Shown in pieces: positions 13,908 through 37,547 of a DNA stretch of 64,000 nt (positions within the stretch are counted from its first letter, which is position 1; every line of letters begins with the position of its first letter). This DNA is from Halomarina salina (GTDB lineage Archaea > Halobacteriota > Halobacteria > Halobacteriales > Haloarculaceae): positions 124,001 through 188,000 of the forward strand of contig NZ_JALLGW010000003.1 of NCBI RefSeq assembly GCF_023074835.1, read 5' to 3'. The notes beneath the pieces were generated by a model. The model worked only from the letters and a program-made list of their open reading frames with translations, was not told the origin of the DNA and searched no databases. The translations under genes and the position numbers were made by a program.

Positions 13908-13977
13908 CGAGAATCGATTGCCTACGTTCGCACATAGTGGTTTCGATGGTGAGGGTCCCGAGCGCGTGGGAGAACCG

Positions 13978-15459
13978 TCAGACGAGGTCGGGGGCGTCTT
14001 CGAGCGTCGTGGCGAGCGTGTCGAGGAACCGCGCCGCGTCGGCCCCGTCGACGACCCGGTGGTCGAACGAGAGGCTGAACCCGATGGTCCGTCTGAACTC
14101 GATGCCCGTCTCCGTCCGGGCGGGGTCCTCGCGGATGGCGTTGACGCCGAGGATGGCGACCTGCGGCGGATTGATGATGGGCGTGAACGTGTCGACGCCG
14201 AACACGCCGAGGTTCGAGACCGTGAACGTCCCGCCCTGGAGGTCGCCCGGACGCTGTCGGCCGCCCTGTACTCGCTCCGTCAGTGAGCCGCGTTCGTACG
14301 CGATCTCGGTGACAGTCTTCGACTCGACGTCCCGCAGGACCGGCGTCACCAGTCCGGCGTCGACGTCGACGGCGACGCCGACGTTGTGCTCCTCGTACAG
14401 TCGGTGGGTGTCGTCCTCGAACGTCGCGTTGAACGCCGGGTGCTCGCCGAGCGTGACGCTGACCGCCTTCAGCAAGATGTCGGAGACCGACACGACGTCG
14501 TCGGCCGCCGAACTCGCCCGGAGGAGCGCCTCGGCGTCGACGCGCCTGTCGACGGTGACGTGTGGAGCCTCCCAGCTCCCGCTCAACCGTCGAGCGATGG
14601 TCGAGCGCATCCCGCCGAGCGGCCGCTCTTCGACCAGCGTCCGCCCGTCCTGGCCCGACGAGACCGACGTGACCTCGTCACCGGATGTCTGCTGGGTCGC
14701 GGACGTGCCTCCCTCACCGGCCGACTCGACGTCGGCTGCGCGGATCGCTCCCCCGGGCCCGCTCCCCGACAGCGTCGCAAGGTCGACACCCAGATCAGAC
14801 GCCCGTTTCCTGGCCCGGGGCGTCGCCGGTGCCGCGGTCGACCCGGCTCGTTCGACCGTGGCCCCGCCCGGGGCCGACGACGAACCGCTGTCGAGCGTAG
14901 CGGTCACGTCCGCCTCGGTCACCGCACCCTTCGGACCGGAGCCACTGACCGACGACAGCGGCAGATTGGCCTCGGACGCCCGTCGCCGCGCTTTCGGCGT
15001 CGCCCGCCCGTCGCCGGTCGACTCACCCGCGGCTGGCTGCTCGGTCGACGGGCCGCCAGCCGACGACTGCGCCACGCGCGACGACTCCGACCCCCCATGC
15101 GACTGTCCCTGGTCGTCGGTCACCGCGGTGGCCGCGGTATCTGCGGACGCCCCGCCCGTCGCCGCGTCGACCTCGCCGTTCTCCTCCTCGATGTCGGCCA
15201 GCAGGTCGTCGATAGCTGCCTCGGCGTCCGCGACGACCCCCAGTGCGGTGCCCGGGGGGACCTCGACGCCCGCCTCCAGCACTCTGTGGCGGAACACGCC
15301 GTTCTCGCGGGCGGTGACCTCGGCGGTCGTCTTCTCGGATTCGATCTCCGCGAGCACGTCGCCGTCCTCGACGGCGTCGCCCTCTTCGACGTGCCAGTCG
15401 AGGAGAATCCCCGTCTGCATCTCTACGCCCATCTTGGGCATCCGGACGATGTACGCCAT
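13978..15459 (-). CDS. Dihydrolipoamide acyltransferase (E2) with two E3/E1-binding domains
   Basis: 493-residue core of the complex. The lipoyl domain (residues 1-80) carries the lipoyl lysine K43 in ESEKTTAEV. An acidic Ala/Gly/Ser-rich linker follows. Two successive peripheral-subunit-binding domains are visible, one from ATPKARRRASEANLP (about 153-187) and one from ATPRARKRASDLGVD (about 212-245), each ending in a GSGP-G-G(A)-ADV pattern. The catalytic acyltransferase domain ends with SFDHRVVDGADAARF, giving the active-site His and Asp. One binding domain is the norm for archaeal and Gram-positive E2, so duplication is unusual. A poly-T TATA-like element at 15484-15492 starts the operon. 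Confidence 0.93.
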   Translation of the reverse strand: MAYIVRMPKMGVEMQTGILLDWHVEEGDAVEDGDVLAEIESEKTTAEVTARENGVFRHRVLEAGVEVPPGTALGVVADAEAAIDDLLADIEEENGEVDAATGGASADTAATAVTDDQGQSHGGSESSRVAQSSAGGPSTEQPAAGESTGDGRATPKARRRASEANLPLSSVSGSGPKGAVTEADVTATLDSGSSSAPGGATVERAGSTAAPATPRARKRASDLGVDLATLSGSGPGGAIRAADVESAGEGGTSATQQTSGDEVTSVSSGQDGRTLVEERPLGGMRSTIARRLSGSWEAPHVTVDRRVDAEALLRASSAADDVVSVSDILLKAVSVTLGEHPAFNATFEDDTHRLYEEHNVGVAVDVDAGLVTPVLRDVESKTVTEIAYERGSLTERVQGGRQRPGDLQGGTFTVSNLGVFGVDTFTPIINPPQVAILGVNAIREDPARTETGIEFRRTIGFSLSFDHRVVDGADAARFLDTLATTLEDAPDLV

Positions 15460-31474: not shown

Positions 31475-32641
31475 ATGGAAACCTTTGCGTTCCACCTGAT
31501 GCCGTATCAGGATGTCGAGGAGATAGACGAGCGTCACGCGGCCTGGCCGTGGGCGGAGTACGACTACGACCCCGAGAAGGGAGCGAAGTACTACGACGAC
31601 TACCTCGGTCAGCTCGAGTACGCCGCGGAGCTCGGATTCGACGGCGTCGCGGTCAACGAACACCACTACAACGCGTACGGTCTCCAGCCCAGTCCGAACA
31701 TCACGGCCGCGAACCTCGCGGGTCGGGTCGGCGACACGACCATCGCGTTCTTCGGGAACCTGCCCGCCCTGCGCGAGAACCCGATTCGACTCGCCGAGGA
31801 ACTCGCGATGCTCGACAACATCACCGAGGGGAACATCATCAGCGGGTTCCCGCGGGGCATCCCGAGCGAGTACCTGGCGTACGGCATCCCGATGGAGGAG
31901 TCCCGGAGTCGCTTCGAGGAGGCCTGGGACCTCATCGTGAAGGCGTGGACCGCCGACGAGCCGTTCGACTGGGACGGCGAGCACTTCCAGTACGAGCAGG
32001 TCAACATCTGGCCGAAGCCGTACCAGGACCCCCACCCGCGGCTCTGGATGCCCGCCGAGAGCGAGGAGTCGCTGCGGTTCGCCGCGAACAAGCAGATACC
32101 AATCGGCCTCGTCTTCCAGCCCGTCGAGACCATCGCCGAGAAGTTCGACGAGTACCGGGGGTACGCCGACGAGTACGGCTGGACGCCGGGCGACGAGCAC
32201 TTCTCGACGATGCGCGCCATCTACGTCGCCGACTCGATGGAGAAGGCCCGCGAGGAGGCCGAGCCGCACCTCCGGAAGTTCTACCGGACGCTCACCGCCG
32301 GCGTCCACATCGGCGTGACCGCGGGCATGATGGGCGACCAGCCGTGGGACCCCGACAAGTGGGATACGTACGTCGACGAACTCCACCCGCACGGCGAACT
32401 CGCGTACAACTACGACTTCGAGAAGTTCCAGGACTACGGCGAGACCATCGTCGGCACCCCGGAGTACGTCGTCGAGGAGCTGAAACGGCAGTACGAGGTC
32501 GTCGGCGGGTTCGGCCGCATCGTCGGGCAGTTCCACTTCGGCGACCTGCCGGACTGGAAGATCCGGAAGAGCCTCCAGCTGTACGCCGAGGAGGTCAAAC
32601 CAGAGGTCGACGAGATAGGCGGCGTGAACCCCGAGTCGTAA
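31475..32641 (+). CDS. Luciferase-like (LLM class) flavin-dependent monooxygenase
   Basis: 388-residue TIM-barrel flavin monooxygenase of the bacterial luciferase group. It contains FDGVAVNEHHYNAYGLQPSPNI, the family's active-site EHH segment, then LAEELAMLDNITEGNIISGFPRGI and PHPRLWMPAESEESLRFAA. Such enzymes use reduced FMN (or F420H2 in some archaeal members) and oxygen to hydroxylate or cleave a substrate. TATA element ATTAAGTAA lies 25-32 bases before the ATG. RibK and ribB genes lie 1.6-3 kb downstream on the same strand and could supply flavin; the small reductase at 23.7 kb is a candidate electron donor. Confidence 0.85.
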   Translation: METFAFHLMPYQDVEEIDERHAAWPWAEYDYDPEKGAKYYDDYLGQLEYAAELGFDGVAVNEHHYNAYGLQPSPNITAANLAGRVGDTTIAFFGNLPALRENPIRLAEELAMLDNITEGNIISGFPRGIPSEYLAYGIPMEESRSRFEEAWDLIVKAWTADEPFDWDGEHFQYEQVNIWPKPYQDPHPRLWMPAESEESLRFAANKQIPIGLVFQPVETIAEKFDEYRGYADEYGWTPGDEHFSTMRAIYVADSMEKAREEAEPHLRKFYRTLTAGVHIGVTAGMMGDQPWDPDKWDTYVDELHPHGELAYNYDFEKFQDYGETIVGTPEYVVEELKRQYEVVGGFGRIVGQFHFGDLPDWKIRKSLQLYAEEVKPEVDEIGGVNPES

Positions 32642-32734
32642 CCCGACCTCCCTTTTCGGCACGCAGTGGCTACTCGAGCCACGGCACGCCCGGTCGAAAC
32701 CTCTTACTCGGCGGCGGTCGAAGCGTGACAGTAC

Positions 32735-33121
32735 ATGCCACCGTCGTTGCACCAGTCGCTGCTGATGGTCACGGAGCTGGAGGAGTCGACCGCGTTCTAC
32801 CGGGACACCGTCGGGTTGGCGGTCGACCGGGAGGCCGACGGCAACGTCGAGTTCGACACCGGGCAGGCGACGCTCGTCCTCGAATCGGACTTCGAACCCG
32901 ACGTGCTCGACGCGTTCGGCCTGGACGACCCCGGCGACGAACGCGGTCGTGGCGTCATCGTCGCCATCGAGGTGGACGGCCCGGACGCGGTCGACGAAGT
33001 GTGCGAGGCGGTCCCCGACGAGGACGTTCGCCTCGCGCCGACGGACGTCGACTGGGGTCGTCGGATGGCCATCGTCTCGGACCCCGACGACTACGCCGTC
33101 GAGATATCGGCGCCGCTGTGA
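32735..33121 (+). CDS. VOC-family (glyoxalase/bleomycin resistance) protein
   Basis: 128-residue single-module vicinal oxygen chelate protein. It has LHQSLLMVTELEESTAFYRDTVGL at the N-terminus and ends with GRRMAIVSDPDDYAVEISAPL, where the last Glu is the usual metal ligand; His5 in LHQSL is the likely first ligand. Two copies would form the active site by dimerisation. Possible roles are lyase, epimerase, or extradiol-type steps. A weak TATA-like element (CTTACT) lies about 28-33 bases upstream. Confidence 0.75.
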   Translation: MPPSLHQSLLMVTELEESTAFYRDTVGLAVDREADGNVEFDTGQATLVLESDFEPDVLDAFGLDDPGDERGRGVIVAIEVDGPDAVDEVCEAVPDEDVRLAPTDVDWGRRMAIVSDPDDYAVEISAPL

Positions 33122-33181
33122 CGAACCCTCGAACCGTCCCACCTGAACATATTTAACGAACGAGGTCCCTCGTTGGGTGTG

Positions 33182-34123
33182 ATGCGTGCACAAGAGCCAC
33201 ATCCCGAGATTCAGGCGTTCATCGACGAGACCGAGGACGCGCCGGCCTTCCACGAGATGCCGATGGAGGAGGTCCGGGGGATGACCGTAGGCGTCTTCTC
33301 GGTGGAGGAGCCGACTCCCGTCGGGGAGGTCGTCGACCGGACGATACCGGGTGAAGGGGGAGAGCTACCGATTCGAATCTACGTCCCGGAGGGCGACGGG
33401 CCGTTCCCGGTGACGATGTTCTTCCACGGCGGCGGGTTCGTCTCGGGGAATCTGGAGAGTCACGACGAACTGTGTCGGGTGCTGGCGAACGACACCGGGG
33501 TAGCAGTCGTCGCCGTCGACTACCGTCTGGCACCGGAGGACCCCTTCCCGGCGGCGGTCGAGGACGCCTACACCGCGACCGAGTGGGTCGCGGAGAACGC
33601 AGACGAGTTCGGCGGTGACGCCAGCAGACTCGCCGTCGCTGGCGACTCCGCCGGGGGGAACCTCGCGGCCGTCGTCGCGCACATGGCCCGCGACCGGGGC
33701 GGTCCCGACCTCCGGTACCAGTTGCTCCTCTACCCGACCGTGTCGCCGCACCTGGACTGGCCGTCCGCCGAGGAGAACGGCGAGGGCTACTTCATCACCG
33801 CCGAGGACCTGGCGTGGTTCGACGAGCAGTACTTCGAGCACGAGATCGACGCGATGAACGTCTACGCCTCGCCGCTCCTCGCGGCCGACTTCGAGGACCT
33901 GCCCCCGGCGACGGTCGTGACGGCGGGCTTCGACCCGCTTCGCGACCAGGGCGTCGCGTACGCCGAGCGACTGGAAGACGCCGGCGTCGCGGTGACCCAC
34001 CACCACTACGACGACGTCATCCACGCGTTCGTCCAGATGGGGGTCGCACCGTTCGGCTTCGAGCGCTCCGCCGAGGCGTTCGACGACGCCGCAGGCGACC
34101 TGCGCGACGCGCTCGCGGAGTGA
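33182..34123 (+). CDS. Alpha/beta hydrolase, hormone-sensitive lipase family
   Basis: 313-residue esterase. The oxyanion motif HGGGF lies near residue 83 and the nucleophile motif GDSAGG near residue 155. The acidic and His members of the triad are likely in DPLRDQGVAYAERL and DVIHAFVQMG. The fold cap helices occupy the first 50 residues. A TATA-like CATATTTAAC at 33148-33157 is 25-34 bases before ATG 33182, so that ATG is chosen; an in-frame TTG at 33173 is also available. It would cleave carboxylic esters in the cytoplasm. Confidence 0.88.
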   Translation: MRAQEPHPEIQAFIDETEDAPAFHEMPMEEVRGMTVGVFSVEEPTPVGEVVDRTIPGEGGELPIRIYVPEGDGPFPVTMFFHGGGFVSGNLESHDELCRVLANDTGVAVVAVDYRLAPEDPFPAAVEDAYTATEWVAENADEFGGDASRLAVAGDSAGGNLAAVVAHMARDRGGPDLRYQLLLYPTVSPHLDWPSAEENGEGYFITAEDLAWFDEQYFEHEIDAMNVYASPLLAADFEDLPPATVVTAGFDPLRDQGVAYAERLEDAGVAVTHHHYDDVIHAFVQMGVAPFGFERSAEAFDDAAGDLRDALAE

Positions 34124-34211
34124 CCCCGCACGACCGCACGTCTCCCGCGTCGGGGGAGGCGGCAACGGAGCGGACGAACGGCCGCGGTTCGGGAGCAGGA
34201 GGTGTCGACGC

Positions 34212-34646
34212 GTGACGTTCACGGTAGAAGGGGCAGTGACGAGCGGTCTCGGCCGTGGCGAGGAGTTCGTCGCGCTACCGGGGTACGCGCGGCAGTTCGA
34301 GGAGAAGCTCGGGTACGAGCCGTTCCCCGGCACGCTGAACCTCGCGCTCTCCCGCTCGGTGGCCGACCAGTTCGCGACACTCCAGTCGGTCACCATCGAG
34401 GGGTGGAGCGAGGACGGCCGGTCGTTCGGCGCGGTCGACTGCTATCCGACCACGCTCGTCTCCGTGGACGCCTCGGTCCGGGTACACGCCATCGTCCCTC
34501 GGCGGACCGACCACGACGCGTCGACGATAGAACTGGTCTCGCCGGTGAAGCTGCGAGACCGGTTCGACCTGAGCGACGACGACCGGGTGTCGATTCGCGT
34601 CGCCTCGCGCGAGGAACAGGAGACGCCGAACCGGTCGACGGACTGA
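34212..34646 (+). CDS. ribK: CTP-dependent riboflavin kinase, catalytic domain only
   Basis: 144-residue archaeal riboflavin kinase (RFK, DUF120), making FMN from riboflavin and CTP. Signature segments are VTSGLGRGEEFVALPGYARQFEEKLGYEPFPGTLNL (shown here in parts: VTSGLG, the Q-F-E stretch and PFPGTLNL), then SPVKLRDRFDLSDDDRV at the C-terminus. Many archaeal RibK proteins carry an N-terminal helix-turn-helix and double as the RbkR regulator; this copy starts directly with the kinase fold at a GTG and has no such domain upstream in any frame. It precedes ribB by 111 bases, in the usual archaeal pairing. Confidence 0.85.
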   Translation: MTFTVEGAVTSGLGRGEEFVALPGYARQFEEKLGYEPFPGTLNLALSRSVADQFATLQSVTIEGWSEDGRSFGAVDCYPTTLVSVDASVRVHAIVPRRTDHDASTIELVSPVKLRDRFDLSDDDRVSIRVASREEQETPNRSTD

Positions 34647-34687
34647 ACGAGGACCCTCGACTCGGAGCCGACCCGCGCCGGGACAAC

Positions 34688-34768
34688 GCTTATCATTCGT
34701 GCCAACGGCTACCTAGCATGGTTTCGGTCGCACCGATACGGACCGAGGTGAGCGGACGTGTGGAGTGA
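34688..34768 (+). promoter_or_regulatory. ribB leader: TATA box, leaderless 16-codon upstream ORF and hairpin
   Basis: A TATA-like CTTATCAT (34689-34696) stands 22-29 bases before an ATG at 34718 that opens a 16-residue frame (MVSVAPIRTEVSGRVE) ending with TGA at 34766-34768. The ribB GTG (34758) lies inside this small frame, in another register, and its Shine-Dalgarno-like GAGGTGA (34745-34751) also lies within it. The arms TCGGTC (34724-34729) and GACCGA (34741-34746) can pair and would partly sequester GAGGTGA. This layout could couple ribB translation to that of the upstream peptide. Confidence 0.45.
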
Positions 34769-35462
34769 TACGCTACTACCGGACAGTTACAGCTACCCCC
34801 AGAAGGAGATTCGGGAGACCCTCGACGACGCCATCGAGGCGTTCGGCCACGGGGAACCGGTGCTCGTCCACGACGACGCCGACCGGGAGAACGAGGTGGA
34901 CCTGGTGTACCCCGCACACGCCGTCACGCCGTCTGACGTGGCGCGGATGCGCAACGACGCCGGCGGCCTCATCTGCGTGGCGCTCTCCCACGACGTGGCG
35001 GAGACGTTCGACCTCCCGTTCCTCCACGACGCAGTCGACCACCCCGCCGGACGGACGACTGACATCCAGTACGACGACCGCTCGTCGTTCTCGCTGACGG
35101 TGAACCACCGCGAGACGTTCACGGGCGTCGTCGACAACGACCGAGCACGTACCATCGCCGAACTCGGCGCGGCGGCCCGCAACCCCGCGGCGGCGGACTT
35201 CGCCGGGGAGTTCGACACGCCGGGCCACGTCCACCTGCTGCGGGCCGCACCGGGCCTCCTCGACGACCGGCAGGGCCACACCGAACTCGGCATCGCGCTC
35301 GCGGACCTCGCCGACGTCCCGCCGGCGGTCGTCGTCTGCGAGATGCTCGACGACGAGACCGGCGGTGCGCTCTCACGGTCCAGCGCGAAGTCCTACGCGC
35401 GGGACACCGACTCGGTGTTCCTGAACGGCAGCACCGTCCTCGAAGCGGTTCGGGCCGACTGA
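34758..35462 (+). CDS. ribB: 3,4-dihydroxy-2-butanone-4-phosphate synthase
   Basis: 234-residue enzyme converting ribulose 5-phosphate to the four-carbon riboflavin precursor plus formate. VLVHDDADRENEVDLVYPA contains the acidic metal loop (DDxDRENE), while RNDAGGLICVAL and the histidine region HTELGIALADLADVPPAVVVCEM are family hallmarks. An in-frame stop (TGA at 34749-34751) just upstream forces the GTG start at 34758. Together with ribK it gives a flavin supply module beside a flavin-dependent monooxygenase. Whether it is the only ribB in the genome cannot be known from this window. Confidence 0.92.
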   Translation: MWSDTLLPDSYSYPQKEIRETLDDAIEAFGHGEPVLVHDDADRENEVDLVYPAHAVTPSDVARMRNDAGGLICVALSHDVAETFDLPFLHDAVDHPAGRTTDIQYDDRSSFSLTVNHRETFTGVVDNDRARTIAELGAAARNPAAADFAGEFDTPGHVHLLRAAPGLLDDRQGHTELGIALADLADVPPAVVVCEMLDDETGGALSRSSAKSYARDTDSVFLNGSTVLEAVRAD

Positions 35463-35591
35463 GTACGGCCAGCCCCCGTTCCCGCGCTTCCCACTTCTCG
35501 AGTCTTCGCACTCCGGTTTCTCACGGGGTGAGCGGTCGTCGGGCGGTTCGCCCGAACCAAGCTTCAAGATACCAGCCGCCGATGGGCCAGT

Positions 35592-36602
35592 ATGTCACAG
35601 CAGCCAGCCGAGTACCCGACTCGCCGACCGACGGACGAGTCGTACCTCGACGCCGACCGGTTCGACCCGCCGACGTCGCTCCTCAACCTGCCGTGGGTCG
35701 ACTGTCACAACCACGCCCACACGCTGTCGTGGGAGGACCGCGAGCGCTACTCGCTGTCGGGCTGTGCGGCGATGGTGATGGTCGCGTCGGGCTACCACTG
35801 GACGCCGTACAAGCCCGTCGCCGCCGAGGACGTCCAGTTCCTCTGGGACGACGTCATCAACAGGAAGCGGGCCATCGAGCGCGACCACCTCTTCGACGCG
35901 AACCTCGCACTGGGCGTCCACACCGGCGTCCGCATCGAGGACCCCGACACGCTGCTCGACCGGATGGCCGAGTACAGCCGCCTCGACGACGTCGTCGCCA
36001 TCGGCGAGACGGGCATCACGCCCGCCCAGCACGCCGAGTCGTGGGCCCTGGACGAGCAGCGAGCGGTCGTCGGGTCGCAGATGGAACTCGCCGCCGACGA
36101 GGACCTGCCGGTCATCCTCCACACGCCGAACGTCGGGACCGACTCGGGGCCGGAGTACCGGTCGGGAATCGGGCTGCCGGGCTACGAGAGCAACACGTCG
36201 CTCGTCCAGGAGCCGGTCCTGACCGGCGAGAACCCGGCGCTGGAGTCGGTGAAGATAGACGTCGAGGTGGCCGCCGACGCCGGCCTACCCGAGGACCGCA
36301 TCGTCGCCTCCCACGCCGACACGAACAACGTCGAGTACCTGCTGGAGGAGACCGACTGCCACGTCAGCTTCACGGTCGGCTACCCGTGGCTGACCGGCAT
36401 CGACGCGACCGACGTCGCGAACACCATCGAGGAGTACGGGCCCGACCGCGTCATGATGGACACGGACTGCGCGAACATCCTCAAGACGGACGTGTTCTCC
36501 GTCAAACGCAGCATCCTCGAACTCTACCGACAGGGCATCGACGAGGACACCATCCGGCAGGTCGTGCTGGAGAACCCGCGCGACGTGTTCGGTCTCGACT
36601 GA
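35592..36602 (+). CDS. TatD-family / amidohydrolase superfamily metal-dependent hydrolase
   Basis: 336-residue TIM-barrel hydrolase. The first metal motif is VDCHNHAH near residue 38, then VVAIGETGITPAQ (TatD-style conserved Glu), LPVILHTPN, IVASHADTNNV and RVMMDTDCAN, which supplies the last Asp. The order of ligands fits TatD-related hydrolases. It is not clear whether the substrate is DNA or a small organic ester, lactone or amide; the catabolic setting favours a small molecule. It is transcribed convergently with the FAH-family gene. Confidence 0.8.
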   Translation: MSQQPAEYPTRRPTDESYLDADRFDPPTSLLNLPWVDCHNHAHTLSWEDRERYSLSGCAAMVMVASGYHWTPYKPVAAEDVQFLWDDVINRKRAIERDHLFDANLALGVHTGVRIEDPDTLLDRMAEYSRLDDVVAIGETGITPAQHAESWALDEQRAVVGSQMELAADEDLPVILHTPNVGTDSGPEYRSGIGLPGYESNTSLVQEPVLTGENPALESVKIDVEVAADAGLPEDRIVASHADTNNVEYLLEETDCHVSFTVGYPWLTGIDATDVANTIEEYGPDRVMMDTDCANILKTDVFSVKRSILELYRQGIDEDTIRQVVLENPRDVFGLD

Positions 36603-36659
36603 GGGACCTAGAAGCGAGGGGCCGAGAGTGGCAGTCGAGCTAGCGGTGCCGAGCGCCGT

Positions 36660-37547
36660 TCAGCGGTGTCGACAGCCGTTCGTCAGCTCTCCCACACCTT
36701 CGATACCGACGGTCACGCTGTCGCCGTCGTCGAGCAGCACCTGTGGCTCCCGGTAGACGCCCACGCCCGGGGGCGTCCCGGTGAATATCAGGTCGCCCGG
36801 TTTCAGCGTGAACGCGCGACTGCAGAAGGAGACGAGTTCGTCGAGGCCGAAGATGAGGTTCGCCGTCGTCGAGTCCTGGACCCGGTCGCCGTTCACCTCC
36901 GTCCAGATGTCGAGGTCGTGGGGGTCGTCGATGTCGTCGAGCGTCACGAGGTCCGGACCGGTCGGCGCGAACGTGTCGAGGCTCTTCCCCCGGACCCACT
37001 GGCCGTCGCCGTGCTGGAGGTCGCGCGCCGAGACGTCGTTGCCGACCGTGACGCCCGCGACGTGGTCGAGCGCCTCGTCCGCCGAGACGTCCCGCGCCTC
37101 CCGGCCGACGACGACGACGAGTTCCGCCTCGTAGTCGACCTGCTCGGCGTAGCTCGGGTCCCAGACGACGTCGTCGCCCGGTCCGACGAGCGTGGTCGGG
37201 AACTTCGAGAACAGCACCGGTTCGTCGGGGATGGGGTTGTCCCCCTCCTCGGCGTGGTCGCGGTAGTTCAGGCCGACGCAGACGATCTTCTCCGGGTCCG
37301 ACACCGGTTCGTGTCTCTCCAGCGAGTCGCGGTCGTGCTGTGCGACACCCGCCTCCTCGGCGAACTCGACCGCGAGCGAGGCCTTCTCCTCCCAGTTCCA
37401 CTGGTCGAGCAGGGCGGCCGTCCCCCTGGGGATATCGATTCCGGCCTCCATGCCCGCCGTGTGGAGATCGACCACCGTCTCCTCGTCCAGTAGCGCGCCA
37501 CACCACGGCGTCTCCGCGTCCGAACCGCTGAATTGCCCAATACGCAT
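36660..37547 (-). CDS. Fumarylacetoacetate hydrolase family protein
   Basis: 295-residue FAH-superfamily enzyme. The C-terminal domain contains IVCVGLNYRDHAEE, then PVLFSKFPTTLVGPGDDV, DYEAELVVVVGREARDVSADEALDHVAGVTVGNDVSARDLQ and FTGTPPGVGV. The Mg ligands are the conserved E/E/D set within these stretches (acidic residues in DYEAELV and in GNDVSARD). The family hydrolyses acylpyruvates or fumarylacetoacetate, or decarboxylates/hydrates 2-oxo acids from aromatic ring cleavage, which complements the ring-cleaving dioxygenase at 20 kb. A TATA-like GCTAAATAAC on the minus strand lies 24-32 bases before the ATG. Confidence 0.88.
   Translation of the reverse strand: MRIGQFSGSDAETPWCGALLDEETVVDLHTAGMEAGIDIPRGTAALLDQWNWEEKASLAVEFAEEAGVAQHDRDSLERHEPVSDPEKIVCVGLNYRDHAEEGDNPIPDEPVLFSKFPTTLVGPGDDVVWDPSYAEQVDYEAELVVVVGREARDVSADEALDHVAGVTVGNDVSARDLQHGDGQWVRGKSLDTFAPTGPDLVTLDDIDDPHDLDIWTEVNGDRVQDSTTANLIFGLDELVSFCSRAFTLKPGDLIFTGTPPGVGVYREPQVLLDDGDSVTVGIEGVGELTNGCRHR

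Follow-up and report, generated by a model that had tools for sequence, protein, structure and literature searches.

In Haloferax volcanii, 72% of protein-coding transcripts are reported to be leaderless (PMC4983044), and Shine-Dalgarno (SD) sites are described as not being used for initiation at 5′-UTRs in Haloferax (PMC3986360). Overlapping genes are served in another way: all nine gene pairs tested in H. volcanii were found to be strictly coupled by termination-reinitiation, with varying help from the SD (PMC6728339), and spacings between -8 and +6 are reported as typical of efficient coupling (PMC10666635). The upstream partner need not be a full gene. According to a 2025 review, short upstream open reading frames (uORFs) can bring a ribosome to the gene with which they are coupled (PMC12548453), and in Mycobacterium tuberculosis the short translated uORF uPPE2 is presented as a landing pad for PPE2, working mostly by termination-reinitiation (PMC11260477). 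Frames of 15-31 residues are also reported ahead of H. volcanii genes, within leaders of 150-250 nt (PMC4983044). For riboflavin synthesis, RbkR is described as an archaeal riboflavin kinase and transcriptional regulator; the H. volcanii protein, HVO_0326, is listed together with ribB, HVO_0327 (PMC8305020).

We analysed a 64,000-nt stretch of DNA from the haloarchaeon Halomarina salina (the window), which carries the second of two ribB genes in this genome (34758-35462, plus strand; PF00926, E 4.4e-54). An ATG at 34718 begins a 16-codon frame, MVSVAPIRTEVSGRVE, on the same strand (34718-34768), and its stop codon, TGA at 34766-34768, ends 11 nt into ribB in a register that differs from that of ribB by +1. 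Because an in-frame TGA lies at 34749-34751, 9 nt 5′ of the GTG at 34758, this GTG is the earliest possible ribB start. The original prediction held that a small frame overlaps the ribB start and encloses an SD-like GAGGTGA, with the GTG in another register; all of this is seen in the DNA, the SD-like site lying at 34745-34751 with its first G 13 nt before the ribB start. A TATA-like box, CTTATC (34689-34694; TTAT at 34690-34693), precedes the uORF ATG by 28 nt.

This arrangement shares with the described H. volcanii pairs an overlapping stop and start, an SD within the upstream frame and a haloarchaeal setting, but in those pairs an ordinary gene lies upstream and the overlap is 4, 1 or 8 nt (PMC6728339, PMC10666635), whereas at the window locus the upstream partner has just 16 codons, begins with a leaderless-type start and overlaps ribB by 11 nt. 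The H. volcanii uORFs are similar in size, but they lie inside long leaders (PMC4983044), whereas the window frame begins where the transcript is predicted to start and runs into ribB. The landing-pad role described for uPPE2 is the role that we propose for the window frame; as described, uPPE2-PPE2 differs in being bacterial, in lying behind a B12 riboswitch and in its AUGA overlap (PMC11260477), and no riboswitch was found at the window locus. We found no report of a uORF before ribB in the open-licence literature on haloarchaea.

The spacing of the TATA-like box can be read against the genome itself. A simple heuristic called 247 genes in 464 kb of this genome, and in these genes matches to TT[AT]T 5′ of the first ATG peak at -31 to -28 (12 + 16 + 18 + 18 = 64 matches), against a mean background of 0.67 matches per offset outside -33 to -23. 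The uORF ATG qualifies by position as a leaderless-type start because its TATA box lies at this peak offset, at -28, and initiation there is likely to be leaderless. The original prediction of a TATA element giving a leaderless ATG at 34718 thus fits by position, with a spacing calibrated on the genome. The combination of TATA box, ATG and small frame ending at the start was found at 2 of 72 SD-led candidate starts in the same 464 kb, the window locus included, compared with a mean of 0.17 and a maximum of 2 in 200 block-shuffled rounds; the layout exceeds what is expected by chance. The other case in this genome joins a TATA box and a 12-codon frame, MSGVPSGRGRPR, on the minus strand of L098 at about 13970-14045, to an SD-led frame of about 800 codons through a GTGA overlap.

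The window ribB matches a small protein class across its whole length. Searches for such proteins (class 2) at a threshold of E <= 1e-95 gave matches in 4 of 146 genomes from the same family, in 6 of 392 from the order, in 4 of 391 from the taxonomic class, and in 2 of 28 and 2 of 125 from two further families, these genome sets overlapping one another and those for the order and class being samples. After removal of three copies (L065, L067 and L069, equal to L013, L012 and L056) and six bacterial matches (L059-L064), there are eight distinct loci in eight different genomes from three haloarchaeal families, three of these genomes having also been recovered as named records; culturable carriers include Haloarcula japonica, Haladaptatus halobius and Natrinema zhouii. 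The class-2 genes form one clade with support of 100/100 beside the Natrialbaceae ribB, the bootstrap not being fully settled. No further members were found in the viral contigs searched, and among the plasmids searched identities above 62% occurred only in a Haladaptatus record that was already known.

Comparison with relatives confirms the small frame and shows it to be conserved. The original prediction had tied its reading to conservation of the frame in relatives, and an ATG in the uORF frame is present in all eight loci, at -40 from ribB in seven and at -37 in L068. When the loci are anchored on the ribB start, no triplet in the preceding 110 nt is as well conserved as the ATG at -40 (7/8), and AGG at -12, within the SD-like site (6/8), and parts of GAGGTG (5/8) come next; flank identity at -110 to -76 is near random, at 12-41%. 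Given an ATG rate of 0.015 at other positions, a shared position would arise by chance with a probability of about 1e-7 if there were five independent lineages, a rough guide and not an exact probability, as the loci are related, belong to one clade and represent five lineages at best. TTAT is also present in 8/8 loci, 25-34 nt before the uORF ATG (25-30 nt in six, 34 nt in two, the latter predicting a short leader of a few bases). Despite this variable spacing the register between ATG and ribB is constant, and the sole length difference inside the uORF is 3 nt. In addition, the stretch 5′ of the TATA box (34680-34694 in the window) is conserved, with a BRE-like AACG or AATA directly before TTAT in 8/8 loci. 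We dropped the openness of the uORF as proof of its function: the third frame is equally open, with stops at 0 of 96 codons, compared with 1 of 104 in the uORF frame and 7 of 104 in the ribB frame.

The stop of the upstream frame lies at or near the ribB start in all eight loci. In seven it is a TGA inside the ribB sequence ATG-xxG-AGT-GA, which gives the 11-nt overlap; the third ribB codon in these loci is AGT, a codon used for only 9 of 104 serines from codon 5 onward. The exception is L004, which reads AGC GAG at these codons and so lacks the TGA; its frame would continue for more than 60 codons, were it not for a TAG one base before the ribB ATG (a 1-nt gap), and its SD is degenerate. A different sequence thus seems to give the same outcome, translation that would end at the ribB start. 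The 11-nt overlap is outside the reported range of -8 to +6, within which only L004 (+1) falls, and overlaps of 14-17 nt also occur between ordinary rbkR and ribB. As a separate matter, the distance from ATG to ribB is 40 nt in 7/8 loci although the sequence between has diverged strongly; this near-constant distance is tighter than coupling alone requires, as coupling would need only the frame.

What is kept is not the peptide. In alignments its letters drift across lineages, and of the changed uORF codons in three close pairs, 1 of 8, 3 of 11 and 1 of 1 were synonymous (the last pair covering 21 nt only), with no excess of synonymous changes in the uORF frame over the other frames in these pairs. 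A function for the 16-residue peptide itself is accordingly very improbable: close pairs do show some likeness, such as the MRINELR common to L056 and L068, but the sequences diverge between lineages and the L004 peptide has only 12 residues. The likeness that remains stems from the SD and the ribB start, and the peptide as such is apparently unimportant. The same divergence bears on a regulatory reading, in which translation of or stalling on the small frame, together with a hairpin, would repress or tune ribB according to flavin. A uORF over the ribB start is conserved, and uORFs linked to vitamin riboswitches have a reported precedent in bacteria (PMC11260477), yet no conserved peptide of the kind that marks a peptide-sensing regulatory uORF was found across the eight loci. 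The hairpin fares no better. The inverted repeat TCGGTC/GACCGA (34724-34746, plus strand; arms 34724-34729 and 34741-34746) spans part of the SD site and had been put forward as part of a control element, but shuffle and fold tests place it at chance level and we judge it incidental: when the 40-nt stretch is shuffled 5000 times, 6.6% of the shuffles contain a stem of at least 6 bp, and the fold z-score for the window is -0.58, with 47 of 200 shuffles folding as well. All 6 stem pairs can form in the window, whereas the nearest relative, L003, which has one G-C to A-T change, keeps 5 of 6 and the other six loci keep 2-3 of 6, and across the eight loci the stem is not kept by compensatory change. 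Neither in the window nor next to the other ribB of this genome does the palindrome occur more often than in shuffled sequence. As an attenuator or operator the hairpin was rejected on these three counts, being neither conserved nor stable nor in excess. No FMN riboswitch was matched by Rfam in 34100-35600, the sole match up to an E value of 1 being a sub-threshold microRNA family. This agrees with one premise of the original prediction, which argued for translational control from the lack of FMN riboswitches in haloarchaea, but the argument is incomplete, as archaea have the RbkR regulator. Of the translational control element that it proposed, the conserved leaderless-type uORF over the ribB start stands, whereas flavin sensing at the window ribB finds no support, and we consider flavin-dependent regulation through the small frame quite unlikely.

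We think it probable that the 16-codon frame is a leaderless mini-cistron that brings ribosomes to ribB and replaces rbkR as its upstream partner. Judged by the TATA spacing, transcription would start at ATG 34718 or 1-2 bases from it; a ribosome would initiate on the 5′-terminal AUG, read 16 codons and terminate at the TGA 11 nt inside ribB. Reinitiation would then take place at the ribB GTG, aided by the GAGGTGA within the mini-cistron, as published work on Haloferax suggests, so that the mini-cistron would substitute for rbkR in a ribB copy with its own promoter. Another account is that transcription initiation is what preserves the ATG, or that the ATG is a mere by-product of leaderless transcription, and that ribB starts independently from a 40-nt leader by means of its SD. 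The ATG does sit where transcription should begin, and most loci retain the SD-like site at a similar distance from ribB. However, it is the distance from TATA box to ATG that varies and the register from ATG to ribB that does not, a stop persists at the ribB start even where, as in L004, a TAG has taken the place of the TGA, and the SD is reported to be inactive at Haloferax 5′-UTRs (PMC3986360). This account is for these reasons unlikely. The overlap of two frames that differ by +1 would also permit a frameshift at the uORF end, giving an extended RibB that carries the 16 residues as a fusion, and a minor fusion product is described at the overlapping mycobacterial uPPE2-PPE2 (PMC11260477). 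Against this, all eight loci provide ribB with an ATG or GTG of its own at one and the same position, the peptide is not conserved and the L004 frame stops before the ribB start; we give such a fusion almost no credence.

The substitution for rbkR is suggested by the ordinary arrangement of ribB. The other ribB of this genome, on contig C1, lies directly behind a gene with both DUF120 and HTH matches, that is, rbkR. Among 54 ordinary loci (three non-haloarchaeal and two plasmid loci included), 49 have a possible ribB start between a 6-nt gap and a 23-nt overlap relative to the rbkR stop, by a permissive test in which any in-frame ATG or GTG in this range was counted. Among the chosen spacings, overlaps of 4 nt (19 loci) and 17 nt (12) and a gap of 1 nt (8) are the most frequent. 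Five loci miss the range: in L015, L044 and L054 the search pattern located no rbkR end, L028 has a CTG instead of ATG or GTG, and L052 is the fifth. Since 49 of the 54 loci are so placed, the normal arrangement in these archaea is a ribB preceded by a frame that closes at the ribB start. The window type shares this geometry, and 23 rbkR-ribB loci share the register of the uORF to the ribB start (14-20-nt overlap), but in the ordinary loci the upstream frame is a regulator/kinase gene. Class-2 ribB appears to have lost the upstream rbkR while a frame ending at the ribB start is still present. Because ATG, frame and stop are kept without the peptide, and ordinary ribB has the same geometry, the mini-cistron may be taken to stand in for rbkR.

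Whether the uORF descends from the 3′ end of rbkR is a separate matter. Its end, EVSGRVE, resembles the RbkR ends EVTIRVE. Outside the SD and the start, the DNA of rbkR-ribB junctions is no closer to the uORF than controls are: a weight matrix from 25 junctions, scored outside the SD, gave a class-2 mean of -9.6 versus -4.5 in 34 SD-matched controls, and anchored identity to rbkR ends, compared with 434 looser controls, gave p values of 0.10-0.22 for positions -6 to -1, of 0.09-0.28 with +3 to +8 added, and no likeness at -20 to -14. An origin as an rbkR remnant is no more than a possibility on this evidence. On two haloarchaeal plasmids (L080, 3262-4645; L078, 4334-5657), ribB overlaps a DUF120 protein of 218-238 residues whose N-terminal half has no Pfam match, and the L080 pair lies near another LLM oxidoreductase. 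These pairs are possible intermediates between the rbkR-ribB type and the window type.

The surroundings of the window ribB point to its metabolic setting. Upstream on the same strand lies a CTP-dependent riboflavin kinase (34212-34646; DUF120, PF01982, E 8e-37, its sole Pfam match and thus without an HTH match), and the same cluster includes a luciferase-like flavin monooxygenase (31475-32641, plus strand; PF00296, E 1.5e-41). Genes resembling this monooxygenase and kinase are near ribB in 8/8 class-2 loci, as judged from N-terminal sequence and, for a sample, Pfam, and in four of the eight a HIT-domain gene on the other strand lies between kinase and ribB. Common class-2 neighbours are a VOC protein, an alpha/beta hydrolase, an iron-containing alcohol dehydrogenase and a TatD-like hydrolase; in the window, 31475-37547 also holds a VOC protein, an alpha/beta hydrolase, a TatD-like hydrolase and an FAA hydrolase. 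From its gene content, the cluster looks like a catabolic pathway that is provided with FMN by genes of its own.

We tentatively suggest that haloarchaeal ribB cannot start alone, and that, after one ribB had parted from rbkR within a catabolic cluster with a high demand for flavin, rbkR with its 200-odd codons was replaced by a minimal leaderless cistron, perhaps derived from its tail, which was kept for reinitiation only. A conserved leaderless start with a reinitiation site would explain the use of an SD by a gene with its own promoter, and would address the puzzle that the Haloferax SD is reported to be idle in 5′-UTRs yet used at overlapping genes. With 51 nt, one ATG, one stop and one SD, the locus is a small natural test system, and the case sets selection on translating as such apart from selection on the peptide that is made, within the archaea. 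If the suggestion is true, leaderless mini-cistrons would represent a general route by which haloarchaea start genes that carry an SD.
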